A stretch of 64,000 bases of DNA, from contig NZ_JAKGRW010000002.1 in assembly GCF_021555175.1 (NCBI RefSeq), positions 124,001 to 188,000 of the forward strand, given 5' to 3'. Positions 246-23,198 of the stretch are shown in pieces; positions within the stretch are counted from its first letter, which is position 1, and every line of letters begins with the position of its first letter. The position numbers and the translations under genes are program-made. Under the pieces are notes generated by a model that had not been told where the DNA came from, made no database searches, and saw only the letters and a program-made list of their open reading frames with translations. Source of the stretch: Nocardioides alcanivorans. GTDB lineage: Bacteria; Actinomycetota; Actinomycetes; Propionibacteriales; Nocardioidaceae.

Positions 246-336
246 TCTCAGCGGCGCTTTCGGAGCAGGCATCGCGCAGGTGAGCAGCCGTCAGGCGCGC
301 GGAATCTCCTTGGCCGTGTCGGCTCGCGCTGCTACA

Positions 337-430
337 GTTGGTGATCTGGGCTGGCCGCAAGGCCCTGGTCCAACCTTTAGGCGGGGACATCCCCCGCCAC
401 CCTCTTGAGGCGGGTTCTTCCCGCCTCAAG
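337..430 (+). ncRNA. Candidate structured RNA upstream of the DUF3800 gene (copy 1)
   Basis: Three helices can be drawn. P1 pairs GTTGG (337-341) with CCAAC (370-374), extended by ATC/GGT. P2 is GGCC (353-356), a GCAA tetraloop, and GGCC (361-364). P3 is GGCGGGG (380-386) with CCCCGCC (392-398). An 11-bp perfect hairpin follows (404-414 with 420-430, loop TTCTT) just before the DUF3800 start at 451. A related sequence at 20231-20310 keeps P1, P2 and P3 with compensatory changes in P1 and a GUGA loop in P2. RNA motifs named DUF3800-I to -XI were described upstream of DUF3800 genes by comparative genomics; I cannot say whether this is one of them. Confidence 0.6.
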
Positions 431-450
431 TCGTTTGCAGGGGTCGCGGC

Positions 451-1146
451 GTGCGTGAGTTGAGCATCTTCATCGACGAGTCAGGCGACTTCGGTCCTTT
501 CGAGAAGCATTCGCCGTTCTACGTGCTCAGCCTTGTCTTCCACGACCAGAGTGATGACATCGGCGGCCACCTCGACAAGATTCACGAGGCACTGGTGGTG
601 CGGGGACTGCCGGCCAATCATGCGATTCACACCGGGCCACTCATCCGACGCGAACAGGACTACGGTCTGCTCGACCGGGCGTCTCGGCGATCGATCTTCC
701 GGGTCCTGGTCGACTTCGTGCGCACCTGCGACATCACTCACCACTCATGGGTCTTCAGCAAGCGCGAGCTTGGCGACACGGACCAACTCGTCAGCGCGAT
801 GGCGCGCGAACTCGGCGCCCTCATCCGGTCGAACTACGAGTTCTTCCTGTCCTGGGAGCGCATCGTCGTCTACTACGACAACGGCCAGAGAGAGATCACC
901 CACCTCGTCAACAGCATCTTCAATGCCCACCTCAGCGTCGAGGTACGCAAGGTGGTTCCTGCCGACTACAGCCTGTTCCAGGCCGCCGACCTGTGCTGCA
1001 CGCTGGCACTTCTGCGGCAGAAGATCAACACCGTCGGACTCACAGCTTCAGAGCGCGACTTCTTCTCAACCCCGAAGGATAGAGCCGAGCGAGCCTTGAA
1101 GAAGGGCTACTTCAAGACGCTCGACCGCAAGCGGTTCGGCGCGTAG
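451..1146 (+). CDS. DUF3800 family protein
   Basis: A 231-residue protein with a GTG start. It has the family's RNase H-like acidic signature: IDESGDF near the N-terminus (D9), VYYDNG at the centre, and DYSLFQAADL toward the C-terminus (the Q-x-A-D motif). Biochemical function is not established; the fold suggests nuclease or integrase-like chemistry, and such genes are common on mobile elements. It sits directly behind a structured-RNA candidate and faces the integrase gene convergently. A rearranged fragment of a second copy lies at 22831-23015, so this gene family has been duplicated or traded within the island. Confidence 0.8.
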   Translation: MRELSIFIDESGDFGPFEKHSPFYVLSLVFHDQSDDIGGHLDKIHEALVVRGLPANHAIHTGPLIRREQDYGLLDRASRRSIFRVLVDFVRTCDITHHSWVFSKRELGDTDQLVSAMARELGALIRSNYEFFLSWERIVVYYDNGQREITHLVNSIFNAHLSVEVRKVVPADYSLFQAADLCCTLALLRQKINTVGLTASERDFFSTPKDRAERALKKGYFKTLDRKRFGA

Positions 1147-2741: not shown

Positions 2742-3431
2742 ATGGAGGCATCGGAGACGGTCATCGAGCGGGCCCGCCGCGCAGCGGGTCTGACCCAGGC
2801 GCACATGGCGTACTGGTCGGGCACGCAACAGTCGTCGGTCTCGGAGTATGAGGCTCGCAAGAAGGCACCGACGTTGGAGGTCGTTGAACGGCTGCTGGCA
2901 GCGGCCGATGCGGAACTCACGTTCAAGCCGATCATCAACTTCGAGGAGCACGATGACCCAGAGATCGGGACCTTCTGGGTTCCTGAGCGCTTGTGGACCG
3001 TGCCGATTCCGGCGTGCTTCAGCAAGGTCCAAGTCGCCGGCTTCTTGTTCAAGTCCTCGCGTACACGGGTGTGGGACCTGTCGGTCGAGACTGAACGCAT
3101 CGACTTCTACACGTGGGCGATCCTGCACGGCACCGCAGAACTGTTGCTGGACGCGGTCGACGGTGTGTTGTTGGTCCAAGTCTGGGACAGGCTGGAAATC
3201 CCCGAGGCGATCCGGCGAGCGTGGCAACCGGTTCTGGCAGCGGCCATCTCCTCGCAGGACACGTCACCGCGGGACCCGGGCGGATTCAGCGCCTGGATCA
3301 CTAACGAGGTCGGCGTGACGTGGCGCCCGATCCGCAAACGGAAGCCCCGTCCGCCTCAGAAGCCGATCCCACGCATCTCTCGGGATTCGCCGGTCAGCAT
3401 CGTGCGGCGGGCCTGGGCTTCCGGCCGTTGA
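2742..3431 (+). CDS. XRE-family transcriptional regulator with unknown C-terminal domain
   Basis: A 229-residue protein. Residues about 6-55 form a lambda-repressor-like HTH (AAGLTQAHMAYWSGTQQSSV then SEYEARKKAPTL). The rest (about 60-229) is an unrecognised domain rich in Trp and Phe, ending in a very basic tail. It may repress the divergent xis-int pair or regulate transfer; this is inferred from position only. The frame stays open upstream, but leader-free promoter placement and the HTH position favour 2742. Its 3' end overlaps the convergent relaxase gene by 76 bp. Confidence 0.75.
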   Translation: MEASETVIERARRAAGLTQAHMAYWSGTQQSSVSEYEARKKAPTLEVVERLLAAADAELTFKPIINFEEHDDPEIGTFWVPERLWTVPIPACFSKVQVAGFLFKSSRTRVWDLSVETERIDFYTWAILHGTAELLLDAVDGVLLVQVWDRLEIPEAIRRAWQPVLAAAISSQDTSPRDPGGFSAWITNEVGVTWRPIRKRKPRPPQKPIPRISRDSPVSIVRRAWASGR

Positions 3432-10100: not shown

Positions 10101-11720
10101 ATGCCCCCGCGTAAGAAGACCGACACCACGGCACCTTCCACGATGAAGGAGCTCAAGGACACCCTGTGGAAGGCCGCCGACAAGCTCCGTGGGTCGCTGT
10201 CGGCGAGCCAGTACAAGGACGTCATCCTCGGTCTCGTCTTCCTCAAGTACGTCTCTGACGCCTACGACGAGCGCCGCGAGGCCATCCGATCGGATCTGCT
10301 CGCCGAGGGCTATGACGACGAGCAGATCGGCGACCTGATCGACGACCCGGAGGAGTACCAGGGCTACGGTGTCTTCGTCGTTCCGGAGGAGGCCCGGTGG
10401 GCCTACCTGTCCGAGAACGCCAAGGGCAGGCCCGCCATCGGTGACGAACCCGCCAAGACGATCGGTGCGCTCATCGACACCGCCATGGACGCGGTGATGC
10501 AGGAGAACCCGACCCTCGTCGGCACCCTGCCGCGCATCTACAACCGTGACAACATCGACCAGCGCCGTCTTGGCGAGCTTGTCGACCTGTTCAACAACGC
10601 ACGGTTCAGTCGCCAGGGCGAGCATCGCGCCCGCGATTTGATGGGCGAGGTGTACGAGTACTTCCTCGGTGCATTCGCCCGCGCCGAGGGCAAGCGGGGT
10701 GGGGAGTTCTTCACGCCGCCCTCGGTCGTCAAGGTCATCGTCGAGCTCCTGGAGCCGAACCACGGCCGTGTCTACGACCCGTGCTGTGGGTCGGGCGGCA
10801 TGTTCGTCCAGACCGAGAAGTTCATCCACGAGCACGAGGGCGACCCCAAGGACATCGCGGTGTTCGGCCAGGAGGGCAACGAGGAGACCTGGCGTCTCGC
10901 CAAGATGAACCTCGCCATCCACGGCATCGAGAACAAGGGCCTCGGCGCCCGCTGGGGCGACACCTTCGCGCGCGACCAGCACGCCGACCTTCAGATGGAC
11001 TTCGTGATGGCCAACCCGCCCTTCAACATCAAGGATTGGGCACGCAACGTCGAGGACGCGCGGTGGAAGTACGGCGTCCCGCCGGCCAACAACGCCAACT
11101 ACGCCTGGATCCAGCACATCCTGTCCAAGCTCGCGCCGGGCGGTAGGGCCGGCGTCGTCATGGCGAACGGGTCGATGTCGTCCAACTCCAACGGCGAGGG
11201 CGACATCCGAGCTCAGATCGTCGAGGCCGATCTCGTCTCCTGCATGATCGCCCTGCCGACCCAGCTCTTCCGCAGCACCGGCATCCCGGTCTGTCTCTGG
11301 TTCTTCGCCAAGGACAAGACGAAGGGCAAGCAGGGCTCCATCGACCGCTCCGGTCAGGTGCTCTTCATCGACGCCCGCGAGTTCGGCTACATGGTCGATC
11401 GTGCTGAGCGCGACCTCGACGACGAGAACGACATCAAGAAGATCGCCGACACGTTCCACGCCTGGCGCGGGACGAAGTCAGCGACGGCCGAGTACGCCGA
11501 CGTGCCGGGCTTCTGCAAGTCGGTCACATTGGCCGAGATCAAGGAAGCCGATTACGCATTGACTCCCGGCCGGTACGTCGGCGCTGCTGAGGCAGAAGCC
11601 GATGGCGAGGAGATCGACTCCAAGATCGAACGGCTCACGAAGGAACTGCTTGAGGCCTTCGACGCGACCGAGCATGCGGCCGCAGCTGTGCGCAAGCAGT
11701 TGGAGCGGGTCGATGTCTGA
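10101..11720 (+). CDS. hsdM: Type I restriction-modification system methyltransferase subunit
   Basis: A 539-residue N6-adenine methylase that protects host sites and forms the complex with HsdS and HsdR. The HsdM_N helical domain (about 14-170) is followed by the N6_Mtase domain, with FFTPPSVV, SAM-binding DPCCGSGG (226-233) and catalytic NPPF (305-308). The C-terminal ALPTQLFRSTGIPVCLWFFA segment is typical. It starts one base after the preceding stop and overlaps hsdS by 8 bp, so all are on one transcript. Confidence 0.95.
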   Translation: MPPRKKTDTTAPSTMKELKDTLWKAADKLRGSLSASQYKDVILGLVFLKYVSDAYDERREAIRSDLLAEGYDDEQIGDLIDDPEEYQGYGVFVVPEEARWAYLSENAKGRPAIGDEPAKTIGALIDTAMDAVMQENPTLVGTLPRIYNRDNIDQRRLGELVDLFNNARFSRQGEHRARDLMGEVYEYFLGAFARAEGKRGGEFFTPPSVVKVIVELLEPNHGRVYDPCCGSGGMFVQTEKFIHEHEGDPKDIAVFGQEGNEETWRLAKMNLAIHGIENKGLGARWGDTFARDQHADLQMDFVMANPPFNIKDWARNVEDARWKYGVPPANNANYAWIQHILSKLAPGGRAGVVMANGSMSSNSNGEGDIRAQIVEADLVSCMIALPTQLFRSTGIPVCLWFFAKDKTKGKQGSIDRSGQVLFIDAREFGYMVDRAERDLDDENDIKKIADTFHAWRGTKSATAEYADVPGFCKSVTLAEIKEADYALTPGRYVGAAEAEADGEEIDSKIERLTKELLEAFDATEHAAAAVRKQLERVDV

Positions 11721-12936
11721 GTGGACCACTCTCACACTTGCTGAGATCTGCGCGGCCTCGGGCGGGGGCATTCAGACGGGGCCGTTCGGGTCCCAGCTGC
11801 ACGCGAGCGACTACGTAGCTGAGGGGACACCGAGTGTGATGCCGCAAAACATCGGCGACAATCGCATCTCGACGGAGAGCATCGCTCGGATCAACGACGC
11901 TGATCTTGCGCGACTGGCCAAGTACACGCTCCAGGCTGGCGACATCGTCTACTCGCGACGAGGTGACGTTGAGCGCCGAGCGCTTGTCCGGGAAGAGAAC
12001 GCCGGATGGTTGTGCGGAACCGGATGCCTTCGCGTTCGGATCCAGGACCAGAGCGTCCATGACTCCCGTTTTATCTCGTTCGCGCTCGGCCTCGCCGAGT
12101 CGCGCGAGTGGATCGTTCGTCACGCAGTTGGGGCCACGATGCTGAACCTGAACACGGGGATCCTCGGTGGCGTCCCGCTCAGAGTTCCCGGGGTGAGCCA
12201 GCAGCAGGCGATCGCGGAGGTGCTCAGTGCGCTCGACGACAAGATCGCCGCGAACAAGGAGACCACCGAGCTTCTGCTCGGGTTGGCAGATGCGCAGTTC
12301 GTGAAGGCAGTGGCGGGTTCCAGTCCTGGTCCGTTGACGTTCGGAGAAGTGGCGGACATCGGAGGTGGAGGTACCCCTCGGACGACCGTGGACGAGTACT
12401 GGGGCGGTGCCGTCCAGTGGGCGACGCCGACGGACGTCACGGCCCTCGGCGCGCCTTACCTCGCAGGGACGTCGCGGACCATCACGGATGAAGGCTTGGC
12501 AGCCTGTTCGTCAGCGCTCTATCCGGTTGGGTCGATCCTGATGACGTCTCGGGCGACGATCGGCGCGTTCGCGGTGGCGAAGATTCCGACTGCAGTCAAC
12601 CAAGGCTTCATCGTCGTCAATGCAAAGAACCCTGCGCACCAGTGGTGGCTGTTCCACGAGATGAAGAGCCGTGTGCCCGAGTTCCTGAGCTTTGCAAACG
12701 GAGCAACGTTTCTTGAGCTTCCGCGGGGCCGTTTCAAGGGGGTGAACGTGCGACTCGCCAGCGGGGACGCAATGGCCGAATTCGGCAGCGTCGTTGGCCC
12801 GTTGCACGAAGCGGCGGCCGCCGTCGTGGCGGAATCGGAGACCCTCGCGCGCACACGCGACGCACTGCTGCCGCTGTTGATGTCAGGGAAGGTTCGCGTC
12901 CAGGACGCGGGGAAGACCGTGGAAGGGGTGCTTTGA
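11713..12936 (+). CDS. hsdS: Type I restriction-modification specificity subunit
   Basis: A 407-residue protein that sets the bipartite target sequence. Two half-repeats are visible, each a target-recognition domain plus a conserved helix: TRD1 (about 1-160) ends with VPGVSQQQAIAEVLSALDDK, and TRD2 (about 215-370) ends with a matching coiled helix, SETLARTRDALLPLLMSGKV. The start at 11713 is the only ATG near the domain edge; it overlaps the hsdM stop by 8 bp. The frame is open upstream only as a shadow of hsdM. Confidence 0.92.
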   Translation: MSEWTTLTLAEICAASGGGIQTGPFGSQLHASDYVAEGTPSVMPQNIGDNRISTESIARINDADLARLAKYTLQAGDIVYSRRGDVERRALVREENAGWLCGTGCLRVRIQDQSVHDSRFISFALGLAESREWIVRHAVGATMLNLNTGILGGVPLRVPGVSQQQAIAEVLSALDDKIAANKETTELLLGLADAQFVKAVAGSSPGPLTFGEVADIGGGGTPRTTVDEYWGGAVQWATPTDVTALGAPYLAGTSRTITDEGLAACSSALYPVGSILMTSRATIGAFAVAKIPTAVNQGFIVVNAKNPAHQWWLFHEMKSRVPEFLSFANGATFLELPRGRFKGVNVRLASGDAMAEFGSVVGPLHEAAAAVVAESETLARTRDALLPLLMSGKVRVQDAGKTVEGVL

Positions 12937-15900
12937 TGGTCAGCGAAGCTGAGTGGGAAGAGCAGATGGTCGACGAGCTCTCCTTCCACGGGTGGCTCCC
13001 GCGGCAGGGCAAGGACGTCGCGCCCGGCACGGAGGGTGGCCGCGAGTCGTGGGACGACATCGTCTTGCCGGGCCGAGCGCTGACGGCGCTGCGCAAGCTG
13101 AACCCGACGGTGCCGGGCGAGTACCTGATCCAGGCACTCGCTGAGATCCGGGCACCGAAGTCGCAGGACCCGCTGGCTGAGAACTTCCGCCTTCACCAGA
13201 TCCTCGTGGACGGCTACCGCGGGATTGCCTACGTCGATTCCGATGGCGTCGAGCAGAACCCGACCATCCGGTTCGTCAGCCACAACGTCGACGACAACGA
13301 GTTCCTCACGGTCAACCAGGTCACCATCCGATCCGTCGACGTTGTACGTCGCTTCGACATCGTGCTCTACGTGAACGGCCTGCCGGTCGTCATCGCAGAA
13401 CTCAAGCGTGCGGGCGCTGAGGCGGCAGACATCGCCTCGGCTCACGCCCAGTTGGCGACCTACCTCCGCGAGTTCCCCATGGCGTTCCGCTTCGTCGTGC
13501 TCACGGTCATCTCCGACGGAATCCACGCCCGGTACGGCACGCCGTTCACGCCGCTGAACCACTACTCCCCGTGGAACGTCGACGACGACGGGAAGCCGCT
13601 CGGACGCCTCGACCCCGCCGACCTTGTCGAGCCCGGCGTTAACCCCGACGATGTCTGGCTGCCCGTAACGGTCGAGATGTTTGACCTGGTTCCCGGGATC
13701 TTCAACCAGGAGCGCTTCCTCCAACTCCAGCGAGACTTCGTCGCCTTCGACGAGGGGGCCGATGGCTACGCCAAGCGGATCGCGAAGCCGCACCAGTACT
13801 TCGCAGTGACCAAGGCCGTCGGCTCGACGGTCGACGCCCTTGAGTCGAACGGCAAGGCCGGCGTCGTGTGGCACACCCAGGGTTCGGGCAAGTCGATGGA
13901 GATGGAGCTCTACGCCCACGCTGTCTCTCGCCAGCCGAAGCTGAAGAACCCGACCCTCGTAGTCGTTACCGACCGCACCGAGCTCGACAGCCAGCTGTTC
14001 GAGGCGTTCAACCGCTCGCAGCTTCTGGCTGAGAACCCGATCAATGTGACGACCCGCAAGCAGTTGCGCGAGGAGCTGATCAACCGAGTCACCGGCGGGA
14101 TCTACTTCACGACTCTGCAGAAGTTCGGTCTCACCGGCAAGGAGCGCGAGGCCGGCCTTGACCATCCGTTGCTCACCGATCGCCGCAACATCATCGTGAT
14201 CGTCGACGAGGCCCACCGCAGCCACTACGACGACCTCGACGGCTTCGCCCGTCACATCCGTGATGCGCTCCCCAACGCCGCCTTCATCGCCTTCACCGGC
14301 ACGCCCCTCTCGACCGCGGAGCGGGACACGCAAGAGGTGTTCGGGCGAGTCATCGACACCTACGACCTCACCCGCGCCGTGGCAGACGGTGCGACCGTGC
14401 CGGTCTACTTCGAGCCCCGCCTCGTCGCAGTGAAGCTCGCGGGCGAGGTGACCGAGGACGAGCTCGACGCGGCAGCGGACGAGGCGGTCACCGGCCTCGA
14501 TGAGGTCGAGCGCGAGAGGGTCGAGAAGTCCGTGGCGGTCATCAACGCGATGTACGGCGCCCCCGCGCGGCTGGAGGCGCTGGCAAAGGACATCGTCGAC
14601 CACTGGGACAAGCGCTCAGCCGCGATGGTGTCGTTCATCGAGTCGCCCGGCAAGGCGTTCATCGTCGGCGCAACGCGTGAGATTTGCGCGAACCTCTACG
14701 AGGAGATCATCAAGCTTCGGCCTGAATGGCACGACGACGCGGTCGACAAGGGCGTCGTCAAGGTCGTCTATTCAGGCTCCGCGTCTGACAGGGGCGTCGT
14801 CGCCAAGCACGTCCGCCGCGAGGCCTTGAACAAGGTCATCCAGAAGCGGCTCAAGGACGCTGAGGACCCGCTTCAGATCGTCATCGTCAAGGACATGATG
14901 CTCACGGGCTTCGACGCGCCGCCGCTTCACACGCTCTACCTCGACCGCCCGCTCAAGGGTGCTCTCCTGATGCAGACGTTGGCGCGGGTCAACCGCACCT
15001 TCCGTGGCAAGCCCGATGGCCTGCTGGTGGCGTACGCGCCGCTGGTCGAGAACCTGAGCAAGGCGCTGGCCGAATACACCGAGACCGACCAGGCGAAGAA
15101 GCCAGTTGGGCGCAACATCGACGAGGCCGCCGTTCTCGCACGCCAACTGATCGCCTCTTTGGACGAGGTGTGCGCTGGATACCCGTGGCGTCAGCAGCTC
15201 CAAGGCGATGCACGCAGCTGGATCAAGGCCGCTGTCGGACTGACCAACTACCTCCGCTCGCCTGCGACGCCCGGCAACCAGCCGGGCGAGGGCGAGACAG
15301 CGCTGGTCGATCGGTTCCGGAAGTTCGCGAACCAGCTGGCTCGAGCGTGGGCGTTGGCTGCTGGTTCGCAGACCCTCGAAGACCTGCGCCCGACGGCGAA
15401 GTTCTACGAGGAGGTGCGCGTCTGGGTGGGCAAGTTCGATGCCCAGGAGCGGCAGGCACAGGGCCGGCCGGTCCCCGAAGAGATCCAGCGCCTGCTGTCG
15501 AGCCTCGTCGCGACCTCGACCGAGACCGGCGACGTCATCGACATCTATGAGGCAGCTGGCATGCCCAAGCCGTCGCTGTCGCAGCTCGGCCCGGAGTTCG
15601 TCGCCAAGACCCTGCAGGCCGAGAACCCGCACCTTGCGATCGAGGCGCTGCGTGACCTGCTGACCGAGGAGAGCACGAAGGCAACGAGTCGCAACCTCGT
15701 GCGCCACCGCGCGTTCTCCGAGAAGCTCCGCGAGTTGATGAACAAGTACACCAACCAGCAACTGACCTCCGCCGAGGTCATCGCCGAGCTGATCGAGTTG
15801 GCGAAGGAGGTCGCGGCCGAGGGCAACCGCGGCGCGCACTTCACGCCGCCCCTCAACTCCGACGAGTTGGCGTTCTACGACGCTGTGTCGTCCAACGAGT

Positions 15901-16154
15901 CCGCCGTCGAACTCCAGGGCGAGGACATCCTGGCCGAGATCGCGCGGGAACTCGTCGGCGTGATGCGCCGCGACATCAAGACGGACTGGACCGTGCGCGA
16001 TGACGTACGCGCCAAGCTCCGCTCGTCGATCAAGCGGCTGCTTGTGAAGTACAAGTACCCGCCGGACAAGCAGCCCGAGGCCATCCGGCTCGTCATCGAG
16101 CAGATGGAGAGCATGGCACCAAGTTTCGTGTCTGGTCGGGCTGGGCAGTCCTGA
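12936..16154 (+). CDS. hsdR: Type I restriction-modification endonuclease/translocase subunit
   Basis: A 1072-residue ATP-driven translocase that cleaves unmodified DNA. The N-terminal PD-(D/E)XK nuclease has D141 and E155-x-K157 (FDIVLYVNGLPVVIAELKR). The SF2 motor follows, with Walker A HTQGSGKS (313-320), DEAH (424-427) and FTGTPL, then helicase motifs to about 700 and the C-terminal HsdR helical region (MRRDIKTDWTVRDDVRAKLR), which binds the methylase core. The ATG at 12936 shares its A with the hsdS TGA stop. All catalytic motifs look intact. Confidence 0.95.
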   Translation: MVSEAEWEEQMVDELSFHGWLPRQGKDVAPGTEGGRESWDDIVLPGRALTALRKLNPTVPGEYLIQALAEIRAPKSQDPLAENFRLHQILVDGYRGIAYVDSDGVEQNPTIRFVSHNVDDNEFLTVNQVTIRSVDVVRRFDIVLYVNGLPVVIAELKRAGAEAADIASAHAQLATYLREFPMAFRFVVLTVISDGIHARYGTPFTPLNHYSPWNVDDDGKPLGRLDPADLVEPGVNPDDVWLPVTVEMFDLVPGIFNQERFLQLQRDFVAFDEGADGYAKRIAKPHQYFAVTKAVGSTVDALESNGKAGVVWHTQGSGKSMEMELYAHAVSRQPKLKNPTLVVVTDRTELDSQLFEAFNRSQLLAENPINVTTRKQLREELINRVTGGIYFTTLQKFGLTGKEREAGLDHPLLTDRRNIIVIVDEAHRSHYDDLDGFARHIRDALPNAAFIAFTGTPLSTAERDTQEVFGRVIDTYDLTRAVADGATVPVYFEPRLVAVKLAGEVTEDELDAAADEAVTGLDEVERERVEKSVAVINAMYGAPARLEALAKDIVDHWDKRSAAMVSFIESPGKAFIVGATREICANLYEEIIKLRPEWHDDAVDKGVVKVVYSGSASDRGVVAKHVRREALNKVIQKRLKDAEDPLQIVIVKDMMLTGFDAPPLHTLYLDRPLKGALLMQTLARVNRTFRGKPDGLLVAYAPLVENLSKALAEYTETDQAKKPVGRNIDEAAVLARQLIASLDEVCAGYPWRQQLQGDARSWIKAAVGLTNYLRSPATPGNQPGEGETALVDRFRKFANQLARAWALAAGSQTLEDLRPTAKFYEEVRVWVGKFDAQERQAQGRPVPEEIQRLLSSLVATSTETGDVIDIYEAAGMPKPSLSQLGPEFVAKTLQAENPHLAIEALRDLLTEESTKATSRNLVRHRAFSEKLRELMNKYTNQQLTSAEVIAELIELAKEVAAEGNRGAHFTPPLNSDELAFYDAVSSNESAVELQGEDILAEIARELVGVMRRDIKTDWTVRDDVRAKLRSSIKRLLVKYKYPPDKQPEAIRLVIEQMESMAPSFVSGRAGQS

Positions 16155-17131
16155 TGTCAACTGACCCGGTTCCCGTCATCGAGGATGCGCCCGTCTTTCG
16201 GGTGCTCTCCTTGGACGGCGGCGGCATCAAGGGAACCTTCTCGGCCTCGGTCCTTGCCGATTTTGAGGAAACCCTAGGTGAGCCGCTGGTCGAATACTTC
16301 GACCTCATCGCAGGAACTTCGACCGGCGGCATCATCGCCCTGGGTCTGGGACTTGGGCTCACCGCGAAGGACATCCTCAACTTCTACGAGTCTCACGGCC
16401 CGGCCATCTTTGCCCGGGCGAAGGGGGCCTTCGGTGGGCTACTCGGCGCAAAGTACGGCGCTGAACCCCTTCGCGAAGCGCTCGTGGATGTATTCGGGGA
16501 TCGGCTACTCGGCGAGGCGAAGACCCGACTCGTCGTACCCGCAACGAATCTCGACACCGGTGATGTCCACGTCTTCAAGACAGCGCATCACGCGCGGTTC
16601 GAGCGCGACCACCAGGCCAAGGTTGTGGACGTCGCGATGGCGACCGCAGCAGCCCCGACCTACTTCCGTACTCATCGGCTTCCGGCGGGCACGCCGCTCA
16701 TCGATGGCGGCCTCTGGGCGAACAACCCGATGGGCGCAGTAGCCGTTGAGGCGCTCGGCGTTCTCGACTGGCCGAAGGGCTCCGTCAGGCTGCTGAGCAT
16801 CAGTTGCACCGAGTCTGCGCCGACCATGCGTGACCGCAGCCGGGGTGGGCTCGGCATCGGACGCTGGCTGCCAAACTTGGTCGGCACATTCATGAGCGCC
16901 CAGTCGTCCGCCTCGATCGGGACCGCCACGCTTCTGCTTGGCCACGACAACGTCCACCGCATCTCCAAGACTGTCGGCGGCGACCGATACAAGTTGGATG
17001 GCATCAAGGAGATCGGATCGCTGCGGGGACTCGGCTCGACCGTGGCGCGCGATGAGTTCCCGAAGGTGAAGCAGATGTTTCTGATCGACAAGGCGCGGCC
17101 CTTCGTGCCGCTGCACCAGGGTGCCCGATGA
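16154..17131 (+). CDS. capV: Patatin-like phospholipase, CBASS effector (CapV-like)
   Basis: A 325-residue patatin-fold lipase. It has the oxyanion loop DGGGIKG (21-27), nucleophile elbow GTSTG (S56) and catalytic aspartate in DGG (D184). In CBASS, CapV lipases are switched on by the cyclic nucleotide made by the adjacent cyclase and degrade the inner membrane of infected cells; here that role is inferred from the partner gene. The start overlaps the hsdR stop by 1 base and the end overlaps the cyclase start as ATGA, so restriction and CBASS genes are translationally coupled. Confidence 0.88.
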   Translation: MSTDPVPVIEDAPVFRVLSLDGGGIKGTFSASVLADFEETLGEPLVEYFDLIAGTSTGGIIALGLGLGLTAKDILNFYESHGPAIFARAKGAFGGLLGAKYGAEPLREALVDVFGDRLLGEAKTRLVVPATNLDTGDVHVFKTAHHARFERDHQAKVVDVAMATAAAPTYFRTHRLPAGTPLIDGGLWANNPMGAVAVEALGVLDWPKGSVRLLSISCTESAPTMRDRSRGGLGIGRWLPNLVGTFMSAQSSASIGTATLLLGHDNVHRISKTVGGDRYKLDGIKEIGSLRGLGSTVARDEFPKVKQMFLIDKARPFVPLHQGAR

Positions 17132-18471
17132 AGCTGGTCAAGCACTTCGACGCGTTCCTCAAGAACAAGGTCAACCTCAGCGACAGCCGCATCGCCACTC
17201 TCGACAGCCGCGTCGAAGCGGTCGGCAACTTCTTGTCGTCGGGGTCAGACGTCATCTCGAGCAACTTCATCGAACTCATACCTCAGGGTTCGTACGCGCA
17301 ACGGACGATCATTAACCCCGTCGGGCTTAGCGACGAGTTCGACGCTGACGTCTTGTTCGACATGAACGAGGTCGACGGCTGGGACGCCAAGGACTACGTC
17401 GAAGAGCTGTACAAGGTCTTCCGGTCGAGTGGCACCTATCGAGAAAAGGTGAGCCGCCGGTCGCGGTGTGTCGTCGTCAACTACGCGGGCGAGTTCCACA
17501 TGGACGTCGTCCCGTTCCTGACCAGGCACGACCAGCGGTACATCACGAACCGCAACCAGAACGCCTACGAGCGCACCAACCCCGAGGGCTTCAATCAGTG
17601 GCTCGATGACCAGAACCGCCTGACGAGCGGGCGCCTCGTCAAGGCGATCCGGCTCCTGAAATACGTCCGCGACTTCAAGAACAACTACTCGGTCAAGTCC
17701 GTCATTCTGACCATCCTCGTCGGCGAGCGGGTCACTGGTGCTGCTCTCCTCGCGAACCCCGACCGCTACAAGGATCTGCCGACAGCGTTCCTCAGCCTGC
17801 TGGTCGATCTCGACGACTACCTTCAGGCCAACCCGACGATGCCCAGCATCGACGACCCGAGCTGCCCGACGGAGAACTTCAACCACCGATGGGACCAGGC
17901 CCAGTACGCCAACTTCCGGACATGGATCAATGTCTACGCCGGCTGGGCGCAGGATGCCTACGACGAGCCGGATCCCGCCGAGAGCTACCGGAAGTGGCGC
18001 AAGCTCTTTGGGGACAAGTTCGGCACCTACTCGACGACCGCGGTCAAGACGTCCGAGGCTCACCGCGCCGCGTCCAGCGTCCACGACACGGAGGAGTTCG
18101 CCGAATCGAAGTTCGTGGTCGCGCTCAACCCCGCGTATCGCGTCAGGCTGCAAGCGCGGACCGTCCGACGCGATGGCTGGCGGACCTACACGCTCTCGAA
18201 GCGCGGCAACCGTGTCGACCGAGGCCGAAACCTCACCTTCTCAATCGCTTCCTCGAACGTGCCGGAGCCCTACGAGGTCTGGTGGAAGGTACGCAACACT
18301 GGGCCCGAGGCGATCGCACGCAACTCGATCCGCGGCCAGATCGTGAGGGACGGGGGATCCCGTTCGCGGACGGAACCCACGTCGTTCCGGGGGAACCACT
18401 ACGTCGAGGTGTACGTCGTCAAGGGCGGCGTGGTAGTCGCGAAGGACCACCATCCGGTGATCATCACGTAG
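17128..18471 (+). CDS. CD-NTase: CBASS cyclic oligonucleotide synthase
   Basis: A 447-residue SMODS-type nucleotidyltransferase that would make a cyclic di- or trinucleotide on phage sensing. The active site is complete: PQGSY (G54-S55), D72-A-D74 (EFDADVLF) and the third acid D126 (HMDVVPF). The C-terminus (about 330-447) matches the AGS_C/SMODS-associated sensor type (PYEVWWKVRNTGPEA... RGNHYVEVYVVKGGV). No Cap2/Cap3 or HORMA/TRIP13 genes are adjacent, so this is a two-gene, type I layout. The nucleotide product cannot be read from sequence; a cGAMP-like product is usual with CapV. Confidence 0.88.
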   Translation: MKLVKHFDAFLKNKVNLSDSRIATLDSRVEAVGNFLSSGSDVISSNFIELIPQGSYAQRTIINPVGLSDEFDADVLFDMNEVDGWDAKDYVEELYKVFRSSGTYREKVSRRSRCVVVNYAGEFHMDVVPFLTRHDQRYITNRNQNAYERTNPEGFNQWLDDQNRLTSGRLVKAIRLLKYVRDFKNNYSVKSVILTILVGERVTGAALLANPDRYKDLPTAFLSLLVDLDDYLQANPTMPSIDDPSCPTENFNHRWDQAQYANFRTWINVYAGWAQDAYDEPDPAESYRKWRKLFGDKFGTYSTTAVKTSEAHRAASSVHDTEEFAESKFVVALNPAYRVRLQARTVRRDGWRTYTLSKRGNRVDRGRNLTFSIASSNVPEPYEVWWKVRNTGPEAIARNSIRGQIVRDGGSRSRTEPTSFRGNHYVEVYVVKGGVVVAKDHHPVIIT

Positions 18472-20230: not shown

Positions 20231-20310
20231 CCTAGAGGTATCCTTGTGGAACTGGGCTGGCCGTGAGGCCACGGTCCACCCTCTAGGCGGGGATACCCCC
20301 GCCGCCTAAG
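20231..20310 (+). ncRNA. Candidate structured RNA upstream of the Fic toxin operon (copy 2)
   Basis: Related to 337-398. P1 is GTGGA (20246-20250) with TCCAC (20275-20279); P2 is GGCC-GTGA-GGCC (20259-20270); P3 is GGCGGGG-ATAC-CCCCGCC (20286-20303). Two further pairings are possible: CCTAGAG (20231-20237) with CTCTAGG (20281-20287), and GGTATCC (20237-20243) with the P3 loop region GGATACC (20291-20297). TAGGCGG (20284-20290) could instead pair with CCGCCTA (20302-20308), which borders the AAGGAG ribosome site of the antitoxin gene. This suggests a cis-acting switch or processed RNA; inferred. Confidence 0.58.
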
Positions 20311-20318
20311 GAGCAGCG

Positions 20319-20474
20319 ATGACCAAGCACACGATGTCGGCTGAGGCCCGTCGTCGGTTGGTTGCGCGCTCGACCAAGGCGTCCGCCCGGCTGGAACGAC
20401 GTGAGGTCCCTGCAGACCACGTCCGCTCCGAGAAGGTCGAGAACTTCGTCGCTGCCCTCCGCGCCAAGGCCTGA
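20319..20474 (+). CDS. Small Fic antitoxin carrying the inhibitory S-x-x-x-E-N motif
   Basis: A 51-residue, very basic protein: ATG with AAGGAG 7 bases upstream. Near its end it reads S37-E-K-V-E41-N42, an exact match to the (S/T)-x-x-x-E-(G/N) helix by which class I Fic antitoxins block ATP binding in the partner Fic active site (as in VbhA/VbhT). Its stop shares one base with the Fic start, so toxin and antitoxin are co-translated. Too short to show up in routine gene calls. Confidence 0.75.
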   Translation: MTKHTMSAEARRRLVARSTKASARLERREVPADHVRSEKVENFVAALRAKA

Positions 20475-21109
20475 TGGCCTTCCGGCCGGACTACGGCGAA
20501 ACCCTTCTCACCGAGGAAGAGCGCGAGGCCCTTACTGACGCTGCTCGAGAACTTCTCGGTGATCCGATCCGCAAGGCAGACCTCTACGACCTCGAGCAAC
20601 TGATCCAGAACGAGGTCGCCGACGAATACGTCGCTCGCGTGGTGCGACGCGATCTGACGGCGTCCGACCTGCTGACCGACCACCTCGTCCGCGAGCTGCA
20701 CCGGCGCCTGTACGCGGCGGTCTGGGAATGGGGAGGGCGCCAGCGATCGCGAGAGACGAACATTGGCATCGCCCCGGAACACATCGCCGTCGAGATGCGG
20801 AACTCTCTCGACAACCTGCGCTGGCAGTGGGAACACGGCGCGGGCGTAACGCCGACATGGCTGGGCATCGCCGCCCACGCGGCGCTGGTCCATATCCACC
20901 CGTTTGTCGACGGCAATGGTCGCGTGACACGGCTGATCGCCGACCTCGTGTTCCTCGCCGCTCAGGACGACGACGGCCCTGTCATGGCATACGACTGGGC
21001 GATCGATCGGAAGACGTACATCCGGCTGCTTGGTGAGTACGACTTGACCCGCGACCCCGCGCAGTTGGTCGACTTCATCAACGTCTTCGAGGTCGGCGAC
21101 GAGGCTTGA
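20474..21109 (+). CDS. Fic-domain AMPylase toxin
   Basis: A 211-residue Fic protein that transfers AMP (or another nucleotide group) to a target protein. The active-site loop is complete: H142-PFVDGNG-R-V-T-R153, matching H-x-F-x-D-G-N-G-R-x-x-R. The upstream flap region (ETNIGIAPEH) and a helical N-terminus are as in the mobile mystery protein B group. It lacks its own inhibitory helix, which fits a class I system with the separate 51-residue antitoxin upstream. Confidence 0.88.
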   Translation: MAFRPDYGETLLTEEEREALTDAARELLGDPIRKADLYDLEQLIQNEVADEYVARVVRRDLTASDLLTDHLVRELHRRLYAAVWEWGGRQRSRETNIGIAPEHIAVEMRNSLDNLRWQWEHGAGVTPTWLGIAAHAALVHIHPFVDGNGRVTRLIADLVFLAAQDDDGPVMAYDWAIDRKTYIRLLGEYDLTRDPAQLVDFINVFEVGDEA

Positions 21110-21174
21110 TCGGACGCACAGCTGCCGGTGGCCGCGATGGACCGATTTCGCGCTGGTGAAGTGGGAAGACCAGC

Positions 21175-21186
21175 TAGGCTGGCCAA
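21175..21186 (+). promoter_or_regulatory. -10 box of a leaderless promoter for the reverse transcriptase
   Basis: TAGGCT (21175-21180) followed by six bases and GTG at 21187. The TAG in this box also closes the reading frame upstream, so no earlier start is possible. Confidence 0.55.
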
Positions 21187-22736
21187 GTGCGGTTGTCGGA
21201 CGCGTTGGCGCGCGGGTATCTGCCCCAGGAGCTGCCGCCGTGCTTCACCTCCGCCGACTTCGCCAGCAAGGCCAGCTCGCTCACCCTCCCTCGGATGGGA
21301 AGTGGAGGTATCCGGCCAAGTTCAGCCTGACGCGTGCTGGGGGCCTGCGGCGGTCGGCCGAAATTCCGAACCCATTCAGCCAGTACTTCTTGGCGGAGGC
21401 GTGTTCGGCAAACTGGACGCGACTCCAGCGCCTCTCGGCGCAGAGCCCGATCTCGCTCAGCCGACCCGTGCGCGGCTACTACTCAGCCGGGCGGTCGCTT
21501 GCGTACAAGAAGCCCATCGCTGAGTGGGGCCGGGAACTTGTGGCCCGCATGCCAGGCGGCCGCCTCACGCTTAGGACCGACATCAGTCAGTTCTACCCCT
21601 CCATCTACACCCACGCGGTCGACTGGGCGATCCGGGGGAAGAAGAAGGCGAAGCTGAACATCCACGGCACGGGGCTTGGGCCGACCTTGGACAAGCTCCT
21701 CCGCAACGGACGTGGTGGGCAGACGATCGGTCTCTCCGTAGGTCCCGACACCTCCTGGCTGATTGCCGAAGTGGTGCTCGCGAAGATCGATGCTGAGCTT
21801 GCCAAGCGTCATCCCTCGCTGTCGAAGCGCTGCGCGCGGTTCGGTGACGACATGACGTTCTATGCGACCAGTCACGATGAAGCGCACAGCGTGCTGGCGA
21901 CCTACCAGCACCTGCTGTTGGACTTCGAACTCGCGGTAAACCCGAACAAGGTCGCGGTCATCGATGGGCTTGAGCCCGTTGAGGCACGTTGGGTTCGAAA
22001 ACTTCGCACGCACCGCTACAGGGACCGCTCTGATAGCAATTTGGCGGCAGACATCGTTGACCTGTTTGACCTCGCGTTCGATGAGCGGCAGCGGTTCGCT
22101 ACGCAAGGTGTCATGAGCTACGCGATCATGCGTTGCAACCCGTTCCCCGCCGGTGCGTCGAGTTGGCCGTTGTACCGCGACCTTGTCCTGGCCTCGGTCG
22201 GCCTTGAGCCGAGCACGCTGCGACACGCGTACCGCGTGCTTCGGTTCGCCAAGGATCACGGCCTTCCTGTTGACCAGGACAGGGTGTCGGAGGTTCTCAA
22301 CGACCTCCTGGCCCGACACGCGGCATTGGAGCACGGGTTCGAGACCGCGTGGATCTTGTTCATACTCCGCGAGCTGGGTCTACCCCTCGACGCCGCCAGC
22401 GGGCGAGCAGTGGCCGGCATGAGCGATGCGTGCAGCCTGATTCTGCTCAGGGACTTGTGCGAGGGATCGAGTCGGCTGATGCAGTCGGTCGATTTCAACC
22501 AGGCCGTGAAGCGGGCGGAGGCCGATGATGCGTTGAGCTCAAGCGATTGGCTCCTTGCCTACGAGTTCCGGCATGCTCGGTGGGCGCGCCCGAAGAAGTG
22601 GGACTCAGTCGACGGTTGGAAGGACGCGCATCGTTTGGGCGTGACGTTCTATGTCAGCCCAAACAAGATGCCGAAGCCGCGGTTGCGTCGACGTCTTCCC
22701 CTCTTCCGTCCCTCCTGGGCATACCCGGTCCGCTGA
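21187..22736 (+). CDS. Defence-type (DRT/unknown-group) reverse transcriptase, with apparent frameshift near 21298
   Basis: A reverse transcriptase of about 516 residues, related to phage-defence RTs rather than group II introns. Catalytic motifs: TDISQFYPSIYTHAVDWA (first Asp), QTIGLSVGPDTSWLIAE, and RFGDDMTFYA (the paired Asp; FGDD rather than YxDD). The N-terminus expected for this family (LARGYLPQELPPCFTSADFA) is present but in the +1 frame from GTG 21187, and switches to the main frame at about 21297-21299 (a GGG run). One missing G would give LPRMGKWRYPAKFSLTRAGG. No maturase or endonuclease domain is visible; the C-terminal 220 residues are helical and unrecognised. DRT subtype not assignable by eye. 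Confidence 0.8.
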
Positions 22737-23198
22737 CCCGGGGCACTGCGTGCTGGTTCGGGGGATGCTTTGCGCAGGTGAGCAGTGTTGGGTGCGCGAA
22801 TTCTTACTCGGCCCTGTCGACTCGCGTTGCTGCCGGCCAACCATGCGATTCACGCAGGGCCGCTCATCCGACGTGAACAGGGCTACGGCCTGCCCGACCG
22901 GGCGTCTCGACGATCGATCTTCCGCGTCCTGGTCGACTCGTGCGTACCTGCGACATCACTCACCACTCAGGGAAGTGGAGAAGAAGTCGCGCTCCGAGGC
23001 CGTGAGTCCGACCGGGGCGACGGCGTACTGCCCGCCACCGGGTCGGATCTTGCCTGGTGAAAAGGGGCCACCGGACCGTTCTTCGTCATGGTGGGCCCGC
23101 CTGCGTCGCCCGGCTGGGGCGGCCCCGCGGAAGCTGGGATGCAGGGCGTAGGCTCGTGAGACGGAGCCGTCCAGGCTTCCTCTCAGAGAGTTGCGCCC
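22737..23198. other. Gene-free stretch with island debris
   Basis: This 462-bp stretch holds a decayed DUF3800 copy (22831-23015) and, just upstream at about 22770-22830, sequence resembling 271-333 in front of the intact DUF3800 gene. The right boundary of the accessory region probably lies between 23020 and 23198; no copy of the 18-bp core is visible there. Confidence 0.55.
22831..23015 (+). pseudogene. Rearranged DUF3800 remnant
   Basis: Bases 22831-22970 closely match 608-747 of the intact DUF3800 gene (LPANHAIH-GPLIRREQ-YG encoded). The next bases, about 22975-23015, match the reverse complement of about 1031-1068 of that gene. The fragment is thus part of the gene joined to an inverted part. 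The RNA candidate and first 52 codons are missing. Not translatable. Confidence 0.75.

Follow-up and report, generated by a model that had tools for sequence, protein, structure and literature searches.

The window, the whole 64,000-nucleotide stretch of Nocardioides alcanivorans DNA that was analysed (contig NZ_JAKGRW010000002.1, positions 124,001 to 188,000), was searched with cmscan against Rfam. Two RNAs were recovered, both belonging to RF02975 (DUF3800-XI): copy 1 at 347–395 (59.6 bits, E 1.1e-10) and copy 2 at 20253–20301 (46.3 bits, E 4e-7). Both scores exceed the gathering cut-off of the family (37.8 bits) over the full model (1–48), and both RNAs are real, catalogued DUF3800-XI members; no further gathering-level Rfam match was found in the 64-kb window. 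The DUF3800 motifs reportedly go back to Weinberg et al. 2017. The RNAs and the genes and signals described with them lie on the forward (+) strand. With its folded 3′ end included, copy 1 spans 347..398 (64.8 bits with our own covariance model, R1) and is followed by a DUF3800 gene for a protein of 231 aa with a GTG start (451..1146; PF12686, E 1.7e-11). Copy 2 spans 20253..20303 (48.8 bits with R1) and is followed by an open reading frame of 51 aa (20319..20474) and a Fic gene (20474..21109; PF02661, E 1.9e-11). A DUF3800 gene downstream, as described for RF02975, thus applies to copy 1; copy 2 differs in heading a Fic operon instead. The first-pass annotation, made from the letters alone, had claimed that a structured, DUF3800-type RNA precedes a DUF3800 gene and recurs ahead of a Fic operon, and had recommended comparison with the Rfam DUF3800 models; the RNA and both neighbouring genes were borne out.

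The surrounding region is read as a mobile defence island because it combines the end of menB, att-like repeats, an integrase, a TrwC relaxase, type I restriction-modification, CBASS and a DRT-type reverse transcriptase. The type I system occupies 10101–16154 (methylase 10101–11720, specificity subunit 11602–12936, restriction subunit 12933–16154). It is followed by a CBASS pair, consisting of a phospholipase-type effector (16154–17131; PADLOC, E 4.1e-102) and a cyclase with SMODS and AGS_C domains (17128–18471). The reverse transcriptase (21156–22736) was matched best by PADLOC Drt6 (E 2.5e-113), then Drt4 (4.9e-99), and scored below the NCBIfam Drt4 cut-off. Direct repeats were found at 223–257/18489–18523 (91%) and 150–247/18636–18732 (76%); they may be the attachment sites of an integrative element that settled behind menB and carries the integrase and TrwC relaxase.

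In the cmscan alignments, P1 and the GNRA-capped P2 of the RF02975 model were present in both copies with no broken pairs. In copy 1, P1 is formed by 347–352/367–372 (Rfam model) and P2, a GGCC-GNRA-GGCC hairpin, by 353–364 (pairs 353–356/361–364; fold), followed by a 3′ hairpin of 7 bp (GGCGGGG; 380–386/392–398; fold). In copy 2, P1 is formed by 20253–20258/20273–20278 (Rfam model) and the 3′ hairpin by 20286–20292/20297–20303 (fold), with no U-run behind it. The GGCC-GNRA-GGCC hairpin and the 7-bp GGCGGGG/CCCCGCC hairpin had both been drawn correctly beforehand; P2 loops outside the GNRA class occur in homologues L230, L231, L308 and L317. Between copy 1 and its gene, a second hairpin of 11 bp was predicted by folding (404..430), which is a possible terminator lacking a clear U-run; the leaders of L003, L004 and L172 show a hairpin resembling it. 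Folded alone, the copies were only moderately more stable than shuffled sequences (z −2.6 and −2.9). Copy 1 together with the 404–430 hairpin reached z −6.8, and copy 2 together with the bases downstream z −1.7.

The P1 of the first-pass annotation, for which two compensatory changes between the copies had been claimed (GUUGG 337–341/CCAAC 370–374; GUGGA 20246–20250/UCCAC 20275–20279), did not hold up. This helix competes with the Rfam P1, the bases CCA being common to both, and its 5′ strand either runs into a −10-like box or begins right behind one (TACAGT, 333..338, at copy 1; TATCCT, 20239..20244, at copy 2), so that this strand probably lies outside the transcript. In favour of the helix, the lowest-energy fold of copy 2 (20246–20325) pairs GUGGA with UCCAC, provided that those bases are transcribed. 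Any 5-bp helix of this kind was found in 13/140 homologues, compared with a mean of 5.7 after column shuffling and of 8.2 after permutation of partners (2/200 permutations reached 13), which leaves a weak excess over the controls; outside the window copies, most of these helices fall in the arms or loops of a different 5′ hairpin. The helix is missing from the nearest relatives, L205, L208, L004 and L007, with 4 bp possible in L205 and L208.

Homologues were collected with a search pattern derived from both window copies plus the first relatives, so that much of P1 and P2 is set by the pattern itself, and at least 116 matching stretches in genome contigs and 11 in viral contigs were obtained. 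The alignment comprised 127 rows, or 76 after removal of near-duplicates. Left out were L031, L039, L050 and L108, which looked by eye like fortuitous matches in GC-rich coding DNA, as well as L014 (its RNA meets a contig end), L046 (a duplicate of the L009 record), L001/L002 (the window itself) and three rows whose 3′ part is lost at a contig end; added were both window copies, L004 and L172. Across the 76 distinct rows, 95.2% of the 1368 cells of P1, P2 and the 3′ hairpin were paired, and 51 cells were changed on both sides, compared with a mean of 11.4 in shuffled alignments. The covariation score was attained in 0/500 shuffles, 6/18 pairs were changed on both sides (a number reached by 7/500 shuffles), and structures slid along the alignment gave lower covariation scores. 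RNAalifold returned the identical three helices. Further, more divergent copies were found with covariance model R1; in the resulting 49 distinct rows, in an alignment fitted to the model, 12/18 pairs were changed on both sides. By eye, L230 and L231 exchange most of P2 with pairing kept, and the gene-adjoining RNA of L186 exchanges most of P1 and still pairs. Covariation in these alignments thus points to P1, P2 and the 3′ hairpin as real helices. The Rfam model leaves the 3′ hairpin unpaired; in the present alignments the same hairpin is paired and covaries, and it belongs to the RNA, as this covariation and the pairing kept in divergent copies show. Homologues with compensatory changes, on whose existence the first-pass annotation had staked its proposal, exist in number in both alignments (76 and 49 rows).

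At the window copies, strict sigma-70 and terminator scans returned neither a promoter nor a terminator. The −10-like boxes TACAGT and TATCCT each start 15 nt before the GGGC of their copy, and a promoter and a terminator are suggested here by position and homology. Clearer signals were met in relatives. In the 64 low-GC loci whose gene is intact, the stem is followed by a U-run, counted as 5 or more T within the next 9 nt, in 62/64, and the promoter score lies above the locus's own shuffled mean in 60/64. The best −10 box of these loci stands about 29–40 nt before GGGC in 38/64 and 13–20 nt before it in 17/64, and 35/64 carry a stable hairpin on the 5′ side (at most −5 kcal/mol within 32 nt), compared with 2/64 by the shuffled mean. 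In the high-GC loci, the commonest place of the best −10 box is 13–16 nt before GGGC (9/16), as in the window, and the U-run is rarer (7/16). Comparison of the low-GC loci thus suggests that the 3′ hairpin with its U-run is like an intrinsic terminator.

Promoter-like box, RNA and DUF3800 gene form a compact module (327..1146), delimited by DNA homology to L208 (327–1142, 84%), L205 (327–1139, 81%) and L004 (346–1141, 75%). Beyond the module, only the end of menB (L205) and 150–246 (L208) match; the module sits behind menB both in the window and in L205, which is from another genus of the same family. In 69/72 intact loci, the gene start (taken from the HMM match) lies 62–116 nt from the first model base of the RNA, so there is little space for a second promoter.

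Co-occurrence was assessed by searching with the protein first. In this clade, every full-length open DUF3800 gene that was recovered (37/37) had the RNA just upstream; the 37 are made up of 17 from a 200-genome set, 4 and 2 from further sets and 14 from viral contigs; at least 9 of the 37 genes are also in the RNA-first set. In the set of four, the RNA was present at 4/4, one of them at 26.9 bits, and in the set of two full-length genes at 2/2. The viral-contig genes without in-frame stops had it at 14/14, two at 22–26 bits and some of the genes being near-duplicates; four further viral-contig matches comprised two with RNA, one with a weak match (14.4 bits) and one with none. The 200 genomes belong to one family centred on G596, the genome of L024 (Acetatifactor muris); G596, G597 and G627 had entered through RNA matches. 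A protein profile gave 31 loci in these genomes (fragments merged by hand), 17 full-length and open and 14 broken. The RNA scan of the same genomes listed 69 matches, of which the 40 scoring at least 38 bits adjoin 16 intact, 11 broken and 13 no DUF3800 genes; some of the 29 lower ones may be diverged members. The one intact gene without an RNA among these 40, L218, stands at a contig end that truncates its RNA and leaves the terminator half in view, and 3/14 broken loci (L240–L242) gave no RNA match.

The RNA-first set of 144 loci comprised 72 with an intact gene, 25 with a broken gene, 32 with no gene and 15 undecided (11 with short downstream sequence, 4 at contig ends). As a rough control, a single Pfam search of the 200-genome set found in-locus stops in 4/22 loci of this clade and in 0/26 other DUF3800 loci, the two groups having been split by hand; the other loci are not an RNA-free control, because 3/18 of those scanned with Rfam carry a DUF3800-I or -VII RNA. 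These counts suggest that the gene is often lost before the RNA, and the gene decay may also have other explanations. Orphan RNAs have weaker promoters (mean score 9.3 versus 12.9; 18/28 exceed the shuffled mean), and their 5′ hairpins are weaker too, so many of them may be relics in decay and not functioning antitoxins; the same weakness counts, for many of them, against orphan RNAs as maintained decoys. One orphan copy, with no DUF3800 gene adjoining, is shared by the viral contigs L132, L134 and L140. In L186 (2161–2336, 3570–3638), two tandem RNAs and one inverted RNA surround a single DUF3800 gene, and in L305 a DUF3800-I RNA and a GA-cis RNA (RF02987) lie in one stretch (1188–1294 and 2924–3008).

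The DUF3800 protein of the window matched PF12686 as its sole Pfam family, and not Abi_2, and no PADLOC or NCBIfam model matched it at E 0.01. No convincing solved relative was found by sequence among PDB chains (best E 0.46, or 0.28 with a profile). Phage records gave one partial DUF3800 match and plasmid records one at 29.6% identity. A model predicted with AlphaFold2 from 46 homologues (L053, with a misread start, left out; pLDDT 94.2) was compared with known structures, and RNases HII, H2 and HIII were the top fold matches (Foldseek, E 4.2e-5; VIA, Z 8.7, rmsd 4.0 over 163 residues, a Z that can also reflect a common arrangement of elements). Longer helices between the strands set the DUF3800 model apart from these RNases H. 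Integrases and transposases of RNase H-type fold appeared further down the fold lists. The type III toxin ToxN has the ToxN fold; for DUF3800 an RNase H2-like fold is predicted instead, and ToxN-like chains were not among the fold matches listed, with the VIA list not excluding folds beyond those listed. D9, E10, D143 and D180 are invariant in the 46 proteins and may form the catalytic set; their placing may be reminiscent of the DEDD set of RNase H2. The model thus predicts a nuclease of RNase H2-like fold. PMC10910872 also mentions a catalytic rearrangement.

An antitoxin–toxin relation is suggested by this arrangement because the RNA accompanies every intact gene found, the gene is often destroyed with the RNA kept, a terminator lies between the two, the protein is nuclease-like and there is little space for a second promoter; the mobile defence-island setting is counted in favour as well. 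Counting against it are the single motif, the rarer U-run of high-GC loci, the empty strict scans in the window, the weakened promoters of orphan RNAs and the other possible reasons for gene decay. We give an even chance to the reading that the DUF3800-XI RNA acts as an antitoxin in the manner of type III systems, holding back a nuclease that is expressed by terminator read-through. The RNA would be a discrete small RNA with a core of about 50 nt and, in low-GC bacteria, an optional 5′ hairpin, made from its own promoter, ended by the terminator hairpin and placed directly before its partner DUF3800 gene. Most transcripts would stop at the terminator and yield free RNA; a minority would read through into the DUF3800 mRNA. 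The excess of RNA would bind DUF3800 and keep the nuclease inactive, and a shortage of RNA, for example upon phage shut-off of host transcription, would free it. The pair would then act as a type III toxin–antitoxin or abortive-infection module.

Co-occurrence alone also fits a cofactor or a cis regulator, because RNA and gene move as one block, and a ribonucleoprotein cofactor and a cis attenuator are the main rivals to the antitoxin reading. As a cofactor, the RNA would activate the DUF3800 nuclease as a scaffold, guide or substrate-positioning part. The 37/37 co-occurrence and the predicted RNase H-like fold suit this, as does the presence of DUF3800 proteins beside some Cas12a2 and type VI-F loci (PMC10910872, PMC12669027), and leftover RNA after loss of the gene is expected of any two-part unit. 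However, no variable guide-like stretch was recognised by eye outside the paired regions of the alignment, and a terminator between RNA and gene together with frequent gene loss with the RNA kept suits an inhibitor better; we consider a cofactor unlikely. A somewhat smaller chance is given to an attenuator that senses a ligand or DUF3800 and sets transcription of the gene only, with no role in trans. A structured leader and a terminator do stand immediately before the gene, and the RNA of AbiF also reduces transcription of its own gene through its terminator (PMC12373285). Against it, RNAs without a gene are common (32/144 loci and 13/40), the best RNAalifold structure comes without an alternative antiterminator pairing, and Rfam classes the family as an sRNA gene. 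Least probable of these is a mobile element whose end the RNA marks, with the DUF3800 nuclease serving movement and broken or orphan copies being non-autonomous: the compact block with differing flanks, internal deletions, inverted RNA copies in a few loci (L186, L188, L204) and the integrases and transposases lower in the fold lists would fit, but the 39 genomes selected for holding the RNA carry 1–5 diverged copies each, L188 has no inverted pair of like sequence (59.2 vs 39.6 bits), no common 3′ end past the stop codon was seen and RNase H2/H3 rather than transposases head the fold matches, so that of this reading only compact transfer is supported by the sequence comparisons.

Copy 2 was considered separately. 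Its RNA stops 15 nt short of the start codon (ATG) of the 51-aa ORF. This ORF is kept in L175 and L176, two relatives on the Fic side, had no Pfam, PADLOC or NCBIfam match and is antitoxin-like by position only. The Fic protein resembles 'mobile mystery protein B' (TIGR02613, E 1.9e-27; 96.4 bits, below the cut-off of 124.4). The two closest relatives of the Fic operon (69–71% identity) share the coding region and the ribosome-binding site with the window and have a different leader with no RNA. When the 140 other sequences with classified RNA loci were searched by tblastn at E 1e-4, no match to Fic, the 51-aa ORF or the reverse transcriptase was obtained. By self-BLAST, a scrambled remnant of a further DUF3800 module, with the RNA absent, was located nearby at 22757..23012 (+ strand; 22757–22831 resembling 259–333, 76%; 22830–22972 resembling 607–750, 91%; 22975–23012 resembling 1033–1070 in inverted orientation, 89%). 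Because of this remnant and the different leader of the Fic relatives, copy 2 looks like a single event, a one-off fusion by recombination among module relics, by which the same RNA and promoter-like box would now head the Fic operon. Of the earlier claim of a copy before a Fic toxin operon, the RNA itself thus stands; the arrangement was not seen in other loci or in the Fic relatives. Functional recruitment, with copy 2 now controlling the Fic operon or giving protection in trans from the DUF3800 protein encoded behind copy 1, seems rather improbable to us: the RNA lies close to the 51-aa ORF, has kept its helices (46.3 bits) and occupies the place of another leader in the relatives, but it is a single case for which accidental recombination suffices with the DUF3800 remnant nearby, no U-run follows its hairpin and its fold is ambiguous.

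For the antitoxin reading, the nearest parallel is AbiF with its RNA RCd22 (RF03085), which has the same layout and for which neutralisation is reported as demonstrated (PMC12373285). The order of promoter, structured small RNA, terminator and toxin gene, the last a proposed toxin gene in the case of DUF3800, is common to both, both RNAs were first found as comparative motifs, and both occur in a mobile-element setting. They differ in that AbiF belongs to the Abi_2/AbiD/F family linked to Cas13 and is not RNase H-like, and in that RCd22 has two motifs and demonstrated neutralisation, as against the neutralisation proposed here for DUF3800-XI. With the type III toxin–antitoxin systems described in PMC12373285 (ToxIN, CptNI, TenpNI) and PMC10511110 (AvcID), the module would share the unit of RNA gene, terminator and protein gene; this order is seen in the low-GC loci, and the window has hairpins without a U-run. 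Type III antitoxins have repeats, whereas one DUF3800-XI motif was found per locus inspected, the exception being L186 with its two tandem copies.

Tentatively, and with somewhat less confidence than in the antitoxin reading itself, DUF3800-XI RNA and protein may represent a new class of RNA antitoxin with a single-motif RNA and a toxin of RNase H2 fold; the other DUF3800 RNAs would then be distinct antitoxins, and the DUF3800 nucleases of Cas12a2 and type VI-F loci would be derived from such modules, parallel to AbiF and Cas13. Among the papers searched, none explains the role of the DUF3800-linked RNAs. Through the counts obtained here, a previously unexplained annotation becomes accessible to an inexpensive experimental test. 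With DUF3800 proteins accompanying some Cas12a2 and type VI-F loci (PMC10910872, PMC12669027), a natural control of DUF3800 would matter for these CRISPR loci too.
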